55,890 nt of DNA from Clostridiaceae bacterium (GTDB lineage: Bacteria; Bacillota; Clostridia; DSM-8532): NCBI GenBank assembly GCA_012839205.1, contig DUNT01000048.1:1-55890 (forward strand), written 5' to 3'. A program made the position numbers and the translations under genes. The notes under the pieces were generated by a model. It saw only the letters and a program-made list of their open reading frames with translations. It made no database searches and was not told the origin of the DNA. This document shows, piece by piece, positions 22,535-28,946 of this stretch (its first letter is position 1; every line of letters starts with the position of its first letter).

Positions 22535-22574
22535 TTGACAACAATGATTCAATATTATATCCTGTATATACAGG
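22535..22574 (+). promoter_or_regulatory. Promoter and palindromic operator of the transaldolase-like gene
   Basis: TTGACA at 22535-22540 serves as the -35 element, with several overlapping AT-rich -10 candidates between 22553 and 22563. At 22561-22574 lies a perfect 14-bp palindrome, CCTGTATATACAGG. Its central TGTATATACA recurs exactly in the operator at 24268-24283. Such a palindrome over the start of transcription suits repression by a HutC-type GntR protein; one is encoded at 26697-27416. Confidence 0.6.
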
Positions 22575-22631
22575 GTATTACTGCTACTATTTAGTTCAAA
22601 AAAAGATAAAAATATAATGGAGGGACAGAAT

Positions 22632-23987
22632 ATGTCAACAGTGAATTATCTTTCTAAAGGTGAGGGTACACTTGGTGTAAACTATACCTTAAATTCATTG
22701 AATGCACCTGCTGCAAAAGGTGAAGAGTCTTATGTTAATCGCATAAAAAACATGATTATTTCTGCCGATGACTACGCACTACTCAAAGGAGATGTGGAGT
22801 ATGTCGGTGTCAGTGAGAGGTTTAAGGACGTTATAAAGACATTTAACGTACCTGATGATGAAACTCCCGCAGGATTCCGTATAGAGAGCAGTCTTGAAAA
22901 AGATGGTCTATTATGTGTTGACCTGGTTCGAGACATTTCTTATGACAAAAATGGAATGCCACGTCCTACGGGCGTAATTTTTTCTGCCGACTCTGCTAAT
23001 CCTTATGAGGTAGCTCCCATAGCACCGCTATTAGGTAATCTGACATGCAATCCTGGGATAATTTATGATTTGTTCATCAATAATCCCAAGGCAAATGTCG
23101 GGGGTAAGTTTAAGACACGCGAAGAAGTAATGACAGAGCTCGGAAGAATCCTTGGACCGGGATGTGACATAAGCGTAGAGTTGAATAACCCGTTTGAAAA
23201 AGATTTTGATAAAATACTCGAAGAATGTGAACAATTTAAAGAGATTCTTAGTGAATACAGAGTTGTAATTAAGGTTCCTCATACTGGGCCCGTAAACACC
23301 GACAACGTAAATGAATTGCTGGAAAATGACAAGCTGTTTTCATTAAGATATAACCAACCAGCTACAGCGGATGCGCTACATGGGCATAACCTCGCTCTGA
23401 AATTGAGAGAGCACGGCTATCGCATAAACTATACTTTAATGTTTGAACCATATCAAACTGCAATGGCATTGCAAGCTAAGCCTTATTTCATAAACAGCTT
23501 TATACGTCATCGTCTGAAACAGACGGAATATTTCAAGAAAAACTTGGATCTGTATGCAGTAACAGAAGACCGGAAATATCTTGAAGATATCAGAAGTTTC
23601 ATGGTAGCTAATGACTATCTCAACAAGAATGAAACAGGACGTGATTTACTTGATGTATACAAAATGGCAAAAGATATTATCGAGTATAGAAATTATAATA
23701 ATCCGGAGGGATCTGACGGACTTGATGGTGTGAGACATAATTTGAGACTGCTTCGGAATAATAACCTTCGCGATACACGTCTTATCATTTGTTCCATGGA
23801 AGGTGATTATAATTATCCTGATATTGACAGATTGATGGCAGATCCTGAGTTTGACGATGTTATAGATCGTGTTGTTATAACTGCAGAACCAGGTTATCTT
23901 GCACGGTTTACCAGCGCAAACCAGGTGGTTTCATATCAACGCAGGTTTATGAATGCTGTAAATAATGATCAAAAGAAGTCCAGCTAA
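22632..23987 (+). CDS. Long transaldolase-like (class I aldolase fold) protein
   Basis: A 451-residue protein not assignable to a named enzyme, but with transaldolase hallmarks. FSADSANPYEV near residues 118-126 matches the strand with the catalytic Asp (D120); GNLTCNPGIIYDL near 135-147 matches the TTNPSII block; VVIKVPHTGP near 211-220 carries the Schiff-base Lys (K214); and GYRINYTLMFEPYQTAMAL with YFINSFIRHR matches the following strands. Typical transaldolases have 215 to 320 residues; this one has about 110 extra residues at the N-terminus, 25 more between the Lys and the next strand, and a long C-terminus. I chose the ATG at 22632 because GGAGGG lies 7 bases upstream; an earlier ATG at 22617 overlaps that site. 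It sits before an isomerase and transketolase pair, so it probably acts on sugar phosphates. Confidence 0.7.
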   Translation: MSTVNYLSKGEGTLGVNYTLNSLNAPAAKGEESYVNRIKNMIISADDYALLKGDVEYVGVSERFKDVIKTFNVPDDETPAGFRIESSLEKDGLLCVDLVRDISYDKNGMPRPTGVIFSADSANPYEVAPIAPLLGNLTCNPGIIYDLFINNPKANVGGKFKTREEVMTELGRILGPGCDISVELNNPFEKDFDKILEECEQFKEILSEYRVVIKVPHTGPVNTDNVNELLENDKLFSLRYNQPATADALHGHNLALKLREHGYRINYTLMFEPYQTAMALQAKPYFINSFIRHRLKQTEYFKKNLDLYAVTEDRKYLEDIRSFMVANDYLNKNETGRDLLDVYKMAKDIIEYRNYNNPEGSDGLDGVRHNLRLLRNNNLRDTRLIICSMEGDYNYPDIDRLMADPEFDDVIDRVVITAEPGYLARFTSANQVVSYQRRFMNAVNNDQKKSS

Positions 23988-24116
23988 GCGTTGTTGATGG
24001 AAGAAAAATTGAAAGGTGTATTTGCTACTATCAATGCACCGTCTAAAAAAGTCGCTTAGGTGGATTATGAAGATCCGGAAATAATATAAGAATATATACG
24101 GTTTCCAAACCCTTTA

Positions 24117-24152
24117 ATCTCGAGGCGGGGATTTTATTCCCCGCCTCGAGAT
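24117..24152. terminator. Strong GC-rich hairpin after the transaldolase-like gene
   Basis: Two perfect 15-bp arms, ATCTCGAGGCGGGGA and its reverse complement, enclose a 6-base loop. Only ATAATAATCC follows, so the T-run is lacking. It probably ends the first transcript or protects its 3' end. It lies in the 342-base gap 23988-24329, which also holds a short broken reading frame and the next promoter. Confidence 0.6.
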
Positions 24153-24237
24153 AATAATCCTTATTTACCACCTGAGAGATGATCGAATATTTAATCTAGA
24201 TATAACCTGATAACATGTCTCCTTATTACATTTATTA

Positions 24238-24283
24238 TTGACAAAAAGGAAAAAATAGTATACATTCACATGTATATACATGT
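24238..24283 (+). promoter_or_regulatory. Promoter and operator of the isomerase-transketolase operon
   Basis: TTGACA at 24238-24243 is followed after 17 bases by TACATT (24261-24266), with TATACA overlapping it. A perfect 16-bp palindrome, ACATGTATATACATGT, lies at 24268-24283, just after the -10. Its TGTATATACA core is identical to that of the operator at 22561-22574. Confidence 0.65.
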
Positions 24284-24329
24284 AATGTCACTGACTGACA
24301 AATAATATATTATTTATAGGAGGATATTT

Positions 24330-24767
24330 ATGAGAATAGCTATAGGCTGTGATCCAAATGCAACATTGTTCAAAGACGAGTTAATACCATATGTAAAAGA
24401 ATTAGGACATGAGGTAGTTGACTATGGAAGTGATGACCCCATATATGCAAACACAGCTATTAAATTAGCAGAAGACGTTGCTAAAGGGGTATGTGACAGA
24501 GGCATAATAATATGTGGAACCGGGATAGGTGTTTGCATTGCTGCAAATAAAGTACCCGGAGCATATGCGGCTCTTATCAATAATATTTATCAGGCCCAGA
24601 GGGCACAATTGAGTAACAATGCAAACATAATTACAATGGGTGCTCAAGTAACCGGAATTGAGCTTGCAAAATGTTTTGTTAAGGAATATTTAAAAAATCA
24701 ATTTGATCCCAATTCACGTTCTGCACCGAAAGTAGACAGAATTGTCAAATATGAAAAGGGTGAATAA
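24330..24767 (+). CDS. RpiB/LacAB-family sugar-phosphate isomerase, EryI/DerI-like (C4 type)
   Basis: A 145-residue isomerase of the RpiB family. The active-site Cys lies in IICGTGIGVCIAANK (C62). The usual N-terminal SDHAG element is replaced by CDPNA, and where RpiB has RxHND with the ring-opening His, this protein has LSNNANIITMGAQVTG. The end reads FDPNSRSAPKV rather than the GGRHxxRV of pentose-phosphate isomerases. These changes match erythrulose-4-phosphate isomerases (EryI, DerI) as I know them, which act on open-chain C4 substrates. The classic ribose-5-phosphate role is therefore less likely. The ribosome site is AGGAGGATATTT. It is followed after 2 bases by the transketolase N-subunit. 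Confidence 0.8.
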   Translation: MRIAIGCDPNATLFKDELIPYVKELGHEVVDYGSDDPIYANTAIKLAEDVAKGVCDRGIIICGTGIGVCIAANKVPGAYAALINNIYQAQRAQLSNNANIITMGAQVTGIELAKCFVKEYLKNQFDPNSRSAPKVDRIVKYEKGE

Positions 24768-24769
24768 TA

Positions 24770-25612
24770 ATGGAGAGTCAAAAAATAAAAAGTTTAGAAA
24801 AAACTGCGGCAAAATGCCGGCGTAAAGTCGTGCGCATGATAGAGGCAAGTGGAGCTGGACATATGGGAGGAGCTCTTTCTTGCATGGATATCGTGACAGC
24901 ACTTTATTTCCACTTTATGAATATTGATCCCAAAAACCCGAAGATGCCCGAAAGGGATCGATTTATCCTGTCTGCTGGACATAAATGCATGGCTCAATAT
25001 GCAGCGTTGGCAGAGAAAGGATTCTTCCCCGAGGAGATTTTAGATACATATGGTTCTTTGCACTCAAAAATACCTGGTCATCCTGATATGCACAAGCTCC
25101 CTGGAGTAGAGGCAAATACCGGTGCTTTAGGACACGGGCTTTCCATTGCAACTGGTATGGCTTTAGGTCTTAAACAGAACAATATGGGTTCTAAAGTCTA
25201 TGTAGTTATGGGGGACGGGGAACTTCCTGAAGGCTCAAATTGGGAAGCTGCAGCTGCTGCAGCCCATTATGGGTTAGATAATCTAGTAGTTTTTGTTGAT
25301 AATAACGGACTGCAAATTAGTGGTAAAACAGCTGAAGTAATGAATATGGACCCAATTGGGGAAAGGTTCAGGGCATTTGGTTGGGAGACTGCAGCAATTG
25401 ATGGCAACAACATGGAAGAGATTGTTAAAACCATAGAGTATTTAAATACAAAAAAGGGTAGACCAAAGGCAATTATTGCTCATACAATCAAAGGCAAAGG
25501 CATTTCTTTTGCTGAAGATAATTACAAATATCATTACTGGAAACCCAATAAAGATGAATTGGAAAAGGCTATTAATGAGCTTGATGCAGTAATTAAGGAG
25601 GAGACCAAATGA
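24770..25612 (+). CDS. Transketolase, N-terminal subunit
   Basis: A 280-residue half-transketolase containing the thiamine diphosphate pyrophosphate-binding domain. The early His element reads GAGHMGGALS (H31; GHPG in most relatives), followed by FILSAGHKCMAQYA and GALGHGLSIATGMAL. The Mg-TPP motif GDGELPEGSNWEA near residue 148 ends with VDNNGLQ. Split transketolases occur in many Clostridia and archaea. The last 4 bases overlap the start of the C-subunit gene (ATGA), so both subunits are made together. In this operon it probably acts with the RpiB-like isomerase. Confidence 0.93.
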   Translation: MESQKIKSLEKTAAKCRRKVVRMIEASGAGHMGGALSCMDIVTALYFHFMNIDPKNPKMPERDRFILSAGHKCMAQYAALAEKGFFPEEILDTYGSLHSKIPGHPDMHKLPGVEANTGALGHGLSIATGMALGLKQNNMGSKVYVVMGDGELPEGSNWEAAAAAAHYGLDNLVVFVDNNGLQISGKTAEVMNMDPIGERFRAFGWETAAIDGNNMEEIVKTIEYLNTKKGRPKAIIAHTIKGKGISFAEDNYKYHYWKPNKDELEKAINELDAVIKEETK

Positions 25613-26544
25613 GCAAAGAACTAAGAGACCCAAGAAAAACATTTGGCTCTGCGGTATTTGAAGCGGCGAAGACTAACGAGGATATTGTTGTGCTTTCAGC
25701 CGATAGCGGAGGCAGCTCAGGTTTTGGTGAGTTTAAATCCACATACCCGGACAGATATTTTGAGTTTGGGATAATGGAACAAGGTGTTGTGGGAGTAGCA
25801 TCAGGTTTAGCTACGACAGGCAAAATACCTGTATTTTGTGCTATAGCTCCATTTGTTACTTCCCGGCCATATGAAATGTTCCGTAATGATATAGGGTATA
25901 TGAGACAAAATGTGAAGATTGTCGGCCGCAACGGAGGAATCAGCTATTCTGATTTAGGTGCAACACACCATTCCTTGGAAGACTTTGCGATTATTCGAAT
26001 GATTCCTGATGTTGTAATATTATCTCCGCAAGATCCAAGTGAAATAGAGAATGCTGTGAAAGCGATGTTAGACTATAATGGCCCGGTATACATGAGAATA
26101 GGAAATCAAAGTATTCCGGAGTTATTCGAAAGCAAGCCTTTCGAAATAGGCAAAGGAAATCTTATACGAGATGGCCAAGATGTAGCCATTATCTCAACAG
26201 GATCGCTAACCGCTAATGTTCTTGATGCAGCAAAAGTATTGGAAGATAAGGGTTATAATCCAATGGTAATTGGTATGCCTACAATTAATCCTATAGATGA
26301 AGAATTAATAGAATACGCGGCCCGCAAGACAGGGAAAATTGTTACCGTTGAAGAACACTATATTCCGGGAGGATTAGGTTCAATAGTTTCCGAGGTTTGT
26401 AGCAAAACCTTCCCCGTTCATATAAAAATGCTTGGTGTTCCAAAGACCTATGCTACTTCAGGACCCTATAACGAGATACTGGAGTTTTACGGGCTGGATG
26501 CGAAGGGAATTGTAAATTCCGTTGTTGACTTCATCAACAAATAA
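25609..26544 (+). CDS. Transketolase, C-terminal subunit
   Basis: A 311-residue partner subunit that holds the pyrimidine-binding and the C-terminal domains of transketolase. The catalytic Glu that activates thiamine lies in RYFEFGIMEQGVVGVASGLA, and the following GVFC-type strand reads GKIPVFCAIAPFVTSRPYE. The phosphate or aldose loop has GGISYSDLGATHHSLEDFAI. The C-terminal domain starts near ISTGSLTANVLDAAK and ends with VTVEEHYIPGGLGSIVSE. Its ribosome site, AAGGAGGAG, is inside the upstream subunit gene. No key residue seems to be missing. Confidence 0.93.
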   Translation: MSKELRDPRKTFGSAVFEAAKTNEDIVVLSADSGGSSGFGEFKSTYPDRYFEFGIMEQGVVGVASGLATTGKIPVFCAIAPFVTSRPYEMFRNDIGYMRQNVKIVGRNGGISYSDLGATHHSLEDFAIIRMIPDVVILSPQDPSEIENAVKAMLDYNGPVYMRIGNQSIPELFESKPFEIGKGNLIRDGQDVAIISTGSLTANVLDAAKVLEDKGYNPMVIGMPTINPIDEELIEYAARKTGKIVTVEEHYIPGGLGSIVSEVCSKTFPVHIKMLGVPKTYATSGPYNEILEFYGLDAKGIVNSVVDFINK

Positions 26545-26577
26545 CATGAGAACTATTTAAAACCTGGAGAGATATTC

Positions 26578-26613
26578 ATGAAAGGTAAGTTAATAGAGAC
26601 TTGTCTCTGTTAA
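26578..26613 (+). other. 11-codon micro-ORF with a ribosome site before the GntR gene
   Basis: ATG at 26578 follows CTGGAGAGATATTC, and the frame MKGKLIETCLC ends with TAA at 26611. The hairpin AGAGACttGTCTCT overlaps its end. It may be a remnant of a lost gene or a leader peptide; neither can be shown. Confidence 0.25.
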
Positions 26614-26628
26614 CACTTGTAAAAATTT

Positions 26629-26649
26629 TTATAATACGCTGTATTATAA
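26629..26649 (+). promoter_or_regulatory. Inverted repeat upstream of the GntR regulator gene
   Basis: TTATAATAC and GTATTATAA form perfect 9-bp arms around GCT, 47 bases before the regulator start. It could be an autoregulatory operator overlapping a TATAAT element, but it lacks the TGTATATACA core of the other two sites. Confidence 0.4.
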
Positions 26650-26696
26650 TCAATACGAAATATACCAATATTATTTAAGAAACAATAAGGAGTATT

Positions 26697-27416
26697 ATGT
26701 TAGACCATTCAAGCTCGAAGCCGCTTTATGTGCAACTTGAAGAGTTAATTAGAGAAAAACTGGAAAAAGAAATATGGGTATCGGGAGATCTTATACCTTC
26801 GGAGAACGAATTAAGCAAAGAGTGCGGAGTAAGCCGCATGACAGTACGCAATGTTATAACAAAGTTGGTACAAGAAGGTTTGCTGTTTCGTATTCCAGGA
26901 AAAGGTACGTATGTATCTGAACCCAAAATTATTGCTGATACTCTTTCATATGCGGGGATTAGAGAGCAGCTTGAAAAGATGGGATATGAGGTTACTACAA
27001 AATTATTAGAGGCTGCTGCTAAGACTGGTACGAAAGAAATGTGTGATGTTTTTGAAATCGAACCAAATTCGTTGCTTTATACAATAAAACGAATTCGATA
27101 TGTAAGAAACGAGCCATTTAGTCTTCATACTTCATATATCCCGGTTGAACTTGCTCCCGGGCTTGATAAGCTAAATCTCGTCAATGAGCAGCTGTGTACG
27201 ATACTAAGTAACGAATATGGATTGATTCGTGAGCATACACAAGAGACATTGGAATCTGTAGCAGCAACTAAGGAAGAAGCAAAACTCCTGAATATACCGA
27301 TACATCATCCTCTGTTGCTGTTACAAGACACTATTATAGGTAAAAATGGAAAACCATTTGAAATATCCAGTGTTTTATTTCGTGGTGAAAAAATAAAACT
27401 AAGACTTGAATTCTGA
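26697..27416 (+). CDS. GntR-family (HutC subfamily) transcriptional regulator with UTRA domain
   Basis: A 239-residue regulator. The winged helix-turn-helix spans about residues 8-75 with LIPSENELSKECGVSRMTVRN and LVQEGLLFRIPGKGTYV, the GntR signature. From about 90 the UTRA ligand domain follows (KTGTKEMCDVFEIEPNSLLYTIKRIRYVRNEPFSLHTSYIP; the end has PFEISSVLFRGEKIKLRLEF). UTRA domains usually bind sugar phosphates or related small molecules. It lies at the end of the sugar-phosphate locus, so I infer that it controls it. HutC-type regulators commonly recognise GT-TA-AC palindromes, which agrees with the TGTATATACA sites. The ribosome site is AAGGAG. Confidence 0.93.
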   Translation: MLDHSSSKPLYVQLEELIREKLEKEIWVSGDLIPSENELSKECGVSRMTVRNVITKLVQEGLLFRIPGKGTYVSEPKIIADTLSYAGIREQLEKMGYEVTTKLLEAAAKTGTKEMCDVFEIEPNSLLYTIKRIRYVRNEPFSLHTSYIPVELAPGLDKLNLVNEQLCTILSNEYGLIREHTQETLESVAATKEEAKLLNIPIHHPLLLLQDTIIGKNGKPFEISSVLFRGEKIKLRLEF

Positions 27417-28259: not shown

Positions 28260-28946
28260 ATGAAAAAGAAAATTCTTCAAGTACCTGTTATAGTCGGTAA
28301 GGGATCTGAACAGTTTTTTGTCGAAAAGGATCTTTGCCTTGCACCGTCCAGCCCTCCGATATATAAAATTGAGAAAATTGATAAAAAAGTTGTTATAACA
28401 GATGCAAGTGTTATTCCGGGTAAAGTAATTTTCAATGCTTATATCTGGAAGAACGTCACTTACAAGACCGTGGAGGATGTTTGTGATGGAGTTGTCTATG
28501 GCGATATTCATCATGCTACCTTCAAAATCCCCTTTGGCGGCTTTGTTGAAATAAAAGCTATAGGGTGCGATAAGATTGATGAATGTGATACTCCTGAGTT
28601 ACTGGAAGCGTTCGTTGAAGGTGAAAAGGACTTCTTACATAACGAGACTAAATGCAAAGGACAAAAAGTATTCTGCAGCCTTTTAGAAAAAGACGTTGTA
28701 AAGATTACCTTCAAAGTTGTCAGAGCAGAACATGTTCCTGTCTGTGTCGATGAAGAAGACAAAAAAGATAAGGAAAAATGTAAATGCGACGACAAAATCG
28801 ATGATAAGAAAGATAATAAGTTTGACAAATTTGACAAGTACGACCATGACAAGTGCGACAATAAGGATGACAAGTGGGAAAAACGTTATGATTGCCGAGG
28901 GGATTACTATGCCAATTGCCGTGGAAACTACTACAAAAGATGGTAA
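28260..28946 (+). CDS. DUF3794/SPOCS-domain protein with a charged Cys-containing tail
   Basis: A 228-residue protein. Residues about 1-165 fit the SPOCS (DUF3794) domain found in SipL and other spore-coat or exosporium-associated proteins: VPVIVGKGSEQFFVEKD at the start, then KIDKKVVITDASVIPGKVIFNAYIWKNV and the late VFCSLLEKDVVKITFKVV. From about 170 the chain is low complexity, made of Asp, Lys and scattered Cys (KCKCDDKIDDKKDNKFDKF), and it ends with Tyr, Arg and Cys repeats (DCRGDYYANCRGNYYKRW). Such tails are typical of crosslinked or metal-binding coat proteins. Exact role unknown. The ribosome site AAAGGAGTGAGAGA is strong; a terminator follows. Confidence 0.85.
   Translation: MKKKILQVPVIVGKGSEQFFVEKDLCLAPSSPPIYKIEKIDKKVVITDASVIPGKVIFNAYIWKNVTYKTVEDVCDGVVYGDIHHATFKIPFGGFVEIKAIGCDKIDECDTPELLEAFVEGEKDFLHNETKCKGQKVFCSLLEKDVVKITFKVVRAEHVPVCVDEEDKKDKEKCKCDDKIDDKKDNKFDKFDKYDHDKCDNKDDKWEKRYDCRGDYYANCRGNYYKRW

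Follow-up and report, generated by a model that had tools for sequence, protein, structure and literature searches.

The stretch of DNA analysed here (hereafter the window) is 55,890 nt of contig DUNT01000048.1 from a Clostridiaceae bacterium (assembly GCA_012839205.1), and carries on its forward strand, in this order, a long transaldolase (TAL) gene, an RpiB/LacAB-family isomerase gene, a transketolase (TK) split over two genes and a gene for a GntR/UTRA regulator. Comparison with other genomes supports a functional set distinct from plain RpiB, TK and TAL, and the regulator gene and a palindromic operator, TGTATATACA, travel across phyla together with the long TAL, a variant split TK and a variant isomerase. 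Judged from sequence, the locus was tentatively read as an accessory, repressor-controlled module that may remove C2 and C3 units from a ketose or keto-acid carrying something other than a normal phosphate as its tail.

All genes placed here by a first-pass annotation of the window were found at the same coordinates. Its TAL start (22632) was better than the open reading frame (ORF) start at 22617, as a Shine-Dalgarno sequence (GGAGG, 22619-22623) is well spaced to the ATG; TAL residue numbers given below count from 22617. The features are as follows.

22535..22563, + strand: long-TAL promoter read from the sequence (TTGACA 22535-22540, 17-bp spacer, TATCCT 22558-22563)
22561..22574, no strand: operator palindrome CCTGTATATACAGG, overlapping the -10 box of the TAL promoter; exact TGTATATACA match
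22632..23987, + strand: long transaldolase-fold protein, 451 aa; Pfam TAL_FSA and fold match
23997..24089, + strand: remnant of the start of a DHDPS-family aldolase gene (MEEKLKGVFATINAP...*VDYE), 31 codons, just behind TAL
24117..24152, + strand: strong hairpin, probably a terminator-like element behind the TAL unit, without a T-run; fold z-score -5.9 (24090-24200)
24238..24266, + strand: isomerase-TK operon promoter read from the sequence (TTGACA 24238-24243, 17-bp spacer, TACATT 24261-24266)
24268..24283, no strand: operator palindrome ACATGTATATACATGT at the isomerase-TK promoter; exact TGTATATACA match
24330..24767, + strand: RpiB/LacAB-family isomerase, 145 aa; Pfam LacAB_rpiB
24770..25612, + strand: TK N-terminal, thiamine diphosphate-binding subunit; Pfam Transketolase_N
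25609..26544, + strand: TK C-terminal subunit; Pfam Transket_pyr and Transketolase_C
26697..27416, + strand: GntR/UTRA (HutC-subfamily) regulator; Pfam GntR and UTRA

A shared operator travels with the gene set

Exact matches to TGTATATACA were found at two positions of the window only, 22563 and 24271, both at or just behind a promoter of the TTGACA-17-TATxxT-like type, and the TAL gene and the isomerase-TK operon are accordingly arranged as predicted co-regulated units. GTnTAnAC is the operator type of HutC-subfamily regulators. The regulator has the GntR and UTRA domains and a predicted operator of this type, so the name HutC given to it earlier holds for the subfamily and not for the histidine repressor itself (TIGR02018, 117 bits against a cut-off of 220); it is presumed to be the binder of TGTATATACA. 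Genome-wide, 11 sites were counted against three for the reversed control. The sole other clearly promoter-like site lies on contig C33, where it overlaps TTGACA-17-TATCAT about 140 bp upstream of a gene of the dihydrodipicolinate synthase (DHDPS) family, in a promoter layout like those of the TAL and isomerase genes. The remaining sites fall mostly within coding frames, and one on a short contig (L088) is ambiguous.

A scan of 84,980 species genomes returned 59 named loci with the long TAL (44-87% identical) from at least eight phyla: Bacillota, Spirochaetota, Bacteroidota, Chloroflexota, Actinomycetota, Planctomycetota, Verrucomicrobiota and Pseudomonadota. The operator stands ahead of TAL, RpiB, TK, fructose-bisphosphate aldolase (FBA) or DeoC genes in 17 of these loci (22 sites), which include Spirochaetes, Chloroflexi, Planctomycetes and Propionibacteriaceae, and eight control palindromes gave no site ahead of module genes in the same 59. 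GntR homologues 45-59% identical to the regulator are present in many of them. By gene-map counts made by hand, on contigs of which many end early, a TK N-subunit gene lies in the fetched stretch of 29 loci and an RpiB-family gene in 19, with the TK pair inside the TAL operon in about 20. Conserved co-occurrence of the long TAL with the isomerase and TK, for which the first-pass annotation had proposed a genome search, was found in many genomes. Viral contigs searched for relatives of the TAL gene yielded none.

The TAL gene was found in none of 13 same-genus genomes and in 10 of 294 relatives (the window's own genome included), so its distribution is patchy and it has probably been transferred horizontally. 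Among the 294, a close isomerase (72-76%) together with a close TK (65-74%) was detected in G054, G113, G119 and G251 besides the genome itself. G113 and G119 also have TAL, and G284 has TK and TAL without a close isomerase.

Transaldolase, isomerase and transketolase

The long TAL scored 35.6 bits on Pfam TAL_FSA (PF00923, cut-off 27). Its AF2 model (pLDDT 91.9) was matched in the PDB by small transaldolases, an SF-transaldolase and fructose-6-phosphate aldolase (FSA), with Z of 20-22 over residues 120-454, the best matches (Z about 22) being transaldolases and the SF-transaldolase; a single-sequence PDB search with the protein gave no match at E<=1. The model adds to the barrel an N-terminal part of about 120 residues and, between about 297 and 385, a long helical insertion. 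Catalytic residues were aligned to B. subtilis TAL and BmSF-TAL, and Asp125, Asn145, Glu188, the Schiff-base Lys219, Asn271, Thr273 and Phe295 proved invariant in 46 homologues, so the Schiff-base chemistry is predicted to be intact. The family score, the barrel and the Schiff-base Lys with its Asp, Glu, Asn and Thr place the protein with class I transaldolases and FSA, and the Glu/Phe pair, which is of transaldolase type, would favour transfer over release of dihydroxyacetone (DHA). The barrel and the catalytic Asp, Glu, Lys, Asn and Thr are shared with TalC/FSA-type small transaldolases and BmSF-TAL (8BC2), from which the long TAL differs by an identity of only about 20%, the N-terminal extension and the helical insertion. 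In a weak alignment, the Trp of the WAR sulfonate motif of Bm-type sulfofructose transaldolases (SqvA/SftT) falls within an R-H-R stretch of TAL. The long TAL and its homologues define an uncharacterised transaldolase-fold family of 450 aa with conserved partners and a conserved operator, members of which come from gut, termite, digester and soil bacteria. Literature searches on a long TAL accompanied by TK, on apulose TK and on systems of DHA kinase and TAL turned up no relevant paper.

The isomerase passes Pfam LacAB_rpiB (PF02502; 148.8 bits, cut-off 24.7) and PRK05571 (154.5 bits, cut-off 135) and has the CGTG active-site motif. It scored below both the DerI model NF051858 (144.9 bits, cut-off 240) and rpiB TIGR01120 (103 bits, cut-off 138.65). 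Pro9 and Ser95 replace His10 and His99 of RpiB, so that D-P and LSNN stand where RpiB has D-H and H. The nearest solved relative by profile is 5IFZ, itself passing the DerI model, and in a small tree the isomerase grouped with DerI at 85/86, the DerI branch being long. Its earlier description as a C4-type isomerase is only partly right: the placement on the DerI side of the tree has no more than moderate support, and the protein passes neither equivalog model. Like DerI/EryI (5IFZ; NF051858), it has Ser for His99 and lacks His10; it differs from them in falling below the equivalog cut-off and in its gene neighbours. A further DerI/RpiB-like isomerase gene was seen on contig C80 of the same genome (L095:4165-9931), beside RuBisCO-like, Tm-1-like (UPF0261), class II aldolase, triosephosphate isomerase (TIM)-like and sugar ATP-binding cassette (ABC) transporter genes, a cluster which, annotated by eye, resembles apionate/tetrose-phosphate catabolism.

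The D-apulose-4-phosphate transketolase AptAB of the apiose pathway is a split TK acting outside the pentose phosphate pathway (PPP), and is likened to the TK of the locus by description only, both being split. The N-subunit scored 190.7 bits on Pfam Transketolase_N, and the two-subunit layout is that of the canonical split TK of Carboxydothermus hydrogenoformans (6YAJ/6YAK; 250 bits over 297 residues), from which the locus TK is set apart by an Asn for the phosphate-site His and by a separate clade. Canonical TKs carry the head-group motif RSFHR and sulfo-TKs RAFDR (Ala36 and Asp108, subunit H) (PMC11659671). The C-subunit of the locus has Asn108 in place of the phosphate-binding His and Ser36 as the other head-group residue, and shows neither motif. 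A tree was built of 37 C-subunits, AptAB and the characterised SqwGH not being among them and the sulfo type being set by motif and SsuA/TauE context. In it the locus TK is one of six sequences in a clade supported at 100/99; this clade nests in a larger one lacking the His, and the larger one is split from the canonical and sulfo-type TKs at 100/99. The loss of His is clade-wide, each clade having its own substitute (N, C, G, S), and the clade-specific head-group residues of the TK partners (N, C, G, S, D) make the substrate range directly testable.

Contig C33 and the aldolase gene remnant

On C33 the operator-bearing DHDPS-family gene belongs to a sugar-type catabolic cluster. Behind it come a two-component pair, DUF4432, a Zn-alcohol dehydrogenase, a cyclase-family hydrolase, an ABC permease and a second DHDPS. 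Further along stand a phosphoglycerate dehydrogenase (PGDH)-like 2-hydroxyacid dehydrogenase (2HADH), a PfkB resembling 2-keto-3-deoxygluconate (KDG) kinase, a Gfo/Idh dehydrogenase and a ureidoglycolate-lyase-like protein, and the cluster also has ribose-type ABC transporter genes with two solute-binding proteins; the two-component pair and the ABC parts were partly assigned by eye. Three of these genes have close relatives in TAL operons of other bacteria, with identities of 74% for the second DHDPS, 71% for the PfkB and 53% for the 2HADH. The counterparts directly follow the long TAL in Bacteroidales and Peptococcaceae; Flavonifractor and Oscillospiraceae have the order TAL-DHDPS-PfkB. The recurring DHDPS partner is closest to 4-hydroxy-2-oxoglutarate aldolase, and the 2HADH is glyoxylate/hydroxypyruvate-reductase-like.

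The window itself has a decayed DHDPS remnant behind TAL, where relatives have an intact gene. Over 25 residues it shares 56% identity with the DHDPS encoded behind TAL in Flavonifractor (L035), with an alignment score of 64 against a maximum of 47 in 2000 shuffles. Because of this remnant, the C33 operator and the shared synteny, the transporter, kinase and dehydrogenases absent from the locus are probably encoded in the C33 part of the same regulon; the cluster as a whole is tied in by one operator and by three genes whose synteny is seen in other genomes. The first-pass annotation had stated that no transporter, kinase or dehydrogenase for a particular sugar was present, which is correct locally, and the predicted regulon extends to C33 with all three. 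The operator, the second contig and the remnant lay beyond what that annotation could see.

The nearest characterised relatives of the C33 Gfo/Idh protein are levoglucosan and scyllo-inositol dehydrogenases. Its assignment as a GH188 sulfoquinovosidase was dropped, no GH188 entry being among its PDB matches. A Thermotoga-like inositol route (Gfo/Idh, IolM-like Zn-alcohol dehydrogenase and cyclase-family hydrolase) was likewise rejected, as all three fell below existing equivalog cut-offs and no supporting paper was found.

Proposed function, alternatives and related loci

The same genome also encodes a canonical split TK with His, another TAL and a canonical RpiB (contig C100, 183 bits on TIGR01120), so a specialised catabolic role for the locus is likelier than general PPP duty. 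As the two TK genes and the isomerase are without the usual phosphate-gripping residues, the module probably acts on an unusual sugar or sugar acid. Its substrate would be a ketose or a keto-sugar acid with a tail other than phosphate. Glyceraldehyde-3-phosphate (G3P) or a similar acceptor would receive a C2 unit through TK and a C3 (dihydroxyacetone) unit through TAL, which would yield xylulose-5-phosphate and fructose-6-phosphate. The isomerase would turn the leftover C4 aldose into a ketose that TK could cleave again, and the residual small acid or aldehyde would be handled by the 2HADH and the DHDPS aldolase. By analogy, the mode of action may resemble sulfoquinovose TK/TAL catabolism with a different tail.

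In related loci the context is one of sugar acids, with KDG-kinase-like PfkB, DHDPS, RraA-like, TRAP and BASS genes and an enolase-superfamily gene (L027). Many of these neighbours come from metagenome-assembled contigs, several gene names are from Pfam or cluster membership and not from equivalog models, and, for the SusCD/BASS neighbours, SusCD was assigned by eye. Given these recurring partners and the 2HADH, we infer that a carboxylate tail (keto-hexonate or uronate) would fit best. A full carboxylate counterpart of sulfoglycolysis is a more speculative and, on balance, unlikely proposal: a keto-hexonate or ketouronate (or a cyclitol-derived compound) would be cut directly by the dedicated TK and long TAL, the C4 uronate isomerised and recut to glyoxylate, and the C3 cut would give tartronate semialdehyde. 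If true, it would be a new sugar-acid route, spread as a unit with its regulator and operator across at least eight phyla, in bacteria that are mostly anaerobic. With a carboxylate tail, anaerobes would have a route for sugar acids that current maps lack.

Several observations weigh against the module as proposed. The head-group rule for TK was taken over from structure models of other TKs, and the loss of one His does not prove that phosphate substrates were lost, the acceptor probably still being a phosphate. Isomerase and TK occur without the long TAL in G054 (incomplete) and G251. Genes upstream of TAL vary by lineage (FGGY with DeoC and FBA, DhaKL, ABC with TauE, AcnX), so widely that a single common substrate is not demonstrated. 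The C33 transporter, DUF4432 and cyclase-family genes recur beside TAL in none of the related loci, and the Gfo/Idh gene has one weaker match there, in L064. DhaKL and GldA neighbours suggest free DHA rather than transfer to G3P.

The last point would suit a DHA-releasing system, in which the long TAL acts as an FSA-like aldolase, the DHA set free goes to DhaKL for phosphorylation or to GldA for reduction, and TK supplies or removes C2 units. DhaL-DhaK genes adjoin TAL in four loci (L011, L025, L030, L073) and stand in the isomerase-TK operon of G113, and L032, L049 and L052 have a glycerol dehydrogenase gene upstream. We nevertheless regard such a system as quite unlikely, because TAL has the Glu/Phe catalytic pair of transaldolases where FSA has Gln/Tyr, and because no DhaKL is linked to the window. 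Inducible, ordinary non-oxidative PPP enzymes, raising flux on some sugar and altered by drift, have somewhat better prospects without being probable. TK, TAL and RpiB are exactly the non-oxidative set, and relatives adjoin FGGY kinases, FBA, a PHP-domain protein and HAD phosphatases that would complete a sedoheptulose-bisphosphate variant; against this stand the canonical enzymes already in the genome, a clade-wide His loss with a different replacement in each clade, and the difference between a typical TAL and the 450-aa family with its extension. Of the first-pass suggestions, that of a variant PPP is less likely where it means a simple pentose-phosphate supplement. Formaldehyde assimilation by DHA synthase (TK, DhaKL, FBA and TAL) was set aside, no methanol or formaldehyde gene being recognised nearby.

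An erythritol-like route, with the isomerase as D-erythrulose-4-phosphate isomerase and TK and TAL consuming erythrose-4-phosphate, draws on the grouping with DerI (5IFZ, 85/86) and on a DerI score above the rpiB score. It appears improbable: the DerI cut-off is not reached, TK has lost its phosphate His, the locus has neither an EryH-like TIM nor a polyol kinase linked to it, and the C80 cluster, with its TIM-like and additional RpiB-like genes (by eye), is better suited. The sulfosugar reading also came from the first-pass annotation, which had pointed to SqwGH with SqwI. Its enzyme classes are the same: in the sulfo-TK system of Clostridium sp. MSTE9 (SqwGH and SqwI) and the bifurcated sulfo-TK/TAL system of Faecalicatena (PMC11659671), a split TK, an RpiB-family C4 isomerase and a transaldolase-fold enzyme are encoded together, as here, the enzymes are induced together, and the tail-binding residues of TK are changed (PMC11659671). 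Blautia and other Lachnospiraceae moreover have the long TAL with Asp108 TKs (Ala36 in three of four), an SsuA-like ABC transporter and TauE. The locus TK, however, has Ser36/Asn108 and not Ala/Asp, and lies outside the clade holding the sulfo and canonical types (100/99). SftT/SqvA proteins have about 220 aa, in contrast to the 450-aa family, and the locus has a GntR operator regulon with DHDPS, PfkB and 2HADH. It has no linked sulfonate transporter or TauE, no sulfoquinovose (SQ) isomerase was recognised, and the C33 Gfo/Idh relatives named above do not point to GH188. The Lachnospiraceae loci, for their part, lack the TGTATATACA operator and the related GntR. The residues of TK, its position in the tree and the gene context led to rejection of the sulfo reading for this locus, and we consider it very improbable.

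Probable sulfosugar loci with the long TAL were seen in Blautia sp. An249 and other Clostridia (L062, L067, L068, L070, L075; ~1-15 kb). They have an SsuA-like ABC transporter, a TauE exporter, a divergent RpiB, a TIM paralogue and a LarA-type racemase, in L075 also a PFK; their TKs are mostly Asp108 with Ala36 or Pro36, and no SQ isomerase was recognised. They may represent an undescribed sulfonate route.

Other related loci differ in further ways. In Eubacterium callanderi and Acetobacterium bakii (L040:11773-14773, L060:11801-14786), four DeoC-like genes in tandem are neighbours of TAL, FBA, HAD phosphatase and FGGY kinase genes, and in G119 (L117:8250-10037, probably Acetobacterium) a fusion of a class II FBA-like aldolase with a PHP domain directly follows a window-type isomerase-TK set. 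In Flavonifractor (L035, L072, 1-5.6 kb), TGTATATACA also stands ahead of a Dpp-type ABC transporter gene and an AcnX gene (cis-3-hydroxyproline dehydratase-like); a RidA-family gene adjoins the two, which hints at a nitrogen-containing or acid substrate upstream. Genes for E1/E2(/E3) complexes like acetoin or pyruvate dehydrogenase occur in the long-TAL operons of L050, L056, L065, L118, L064 and L077. On contig C93 of G113 (L119:3971-11735), the window-type isomerase and TK share one operon with DhaL, DhaK, a GH2 glycosidase and ThuA, hinting at a keto-sugar or DHA link, and a ThuA gene also follows TK in L098.

In the window, the locus is flanked by unrelated genes, read from the ORFs as a Pit-type phosphate transporter, an M13-type peptidase with SLH-like repeats and a CsxC-like spore-coat protein. 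The last of these (SPOCS/CsxC-like, 28260-28946) has a highly charged C-terminal tail rich in Lys, Asp and Cys.

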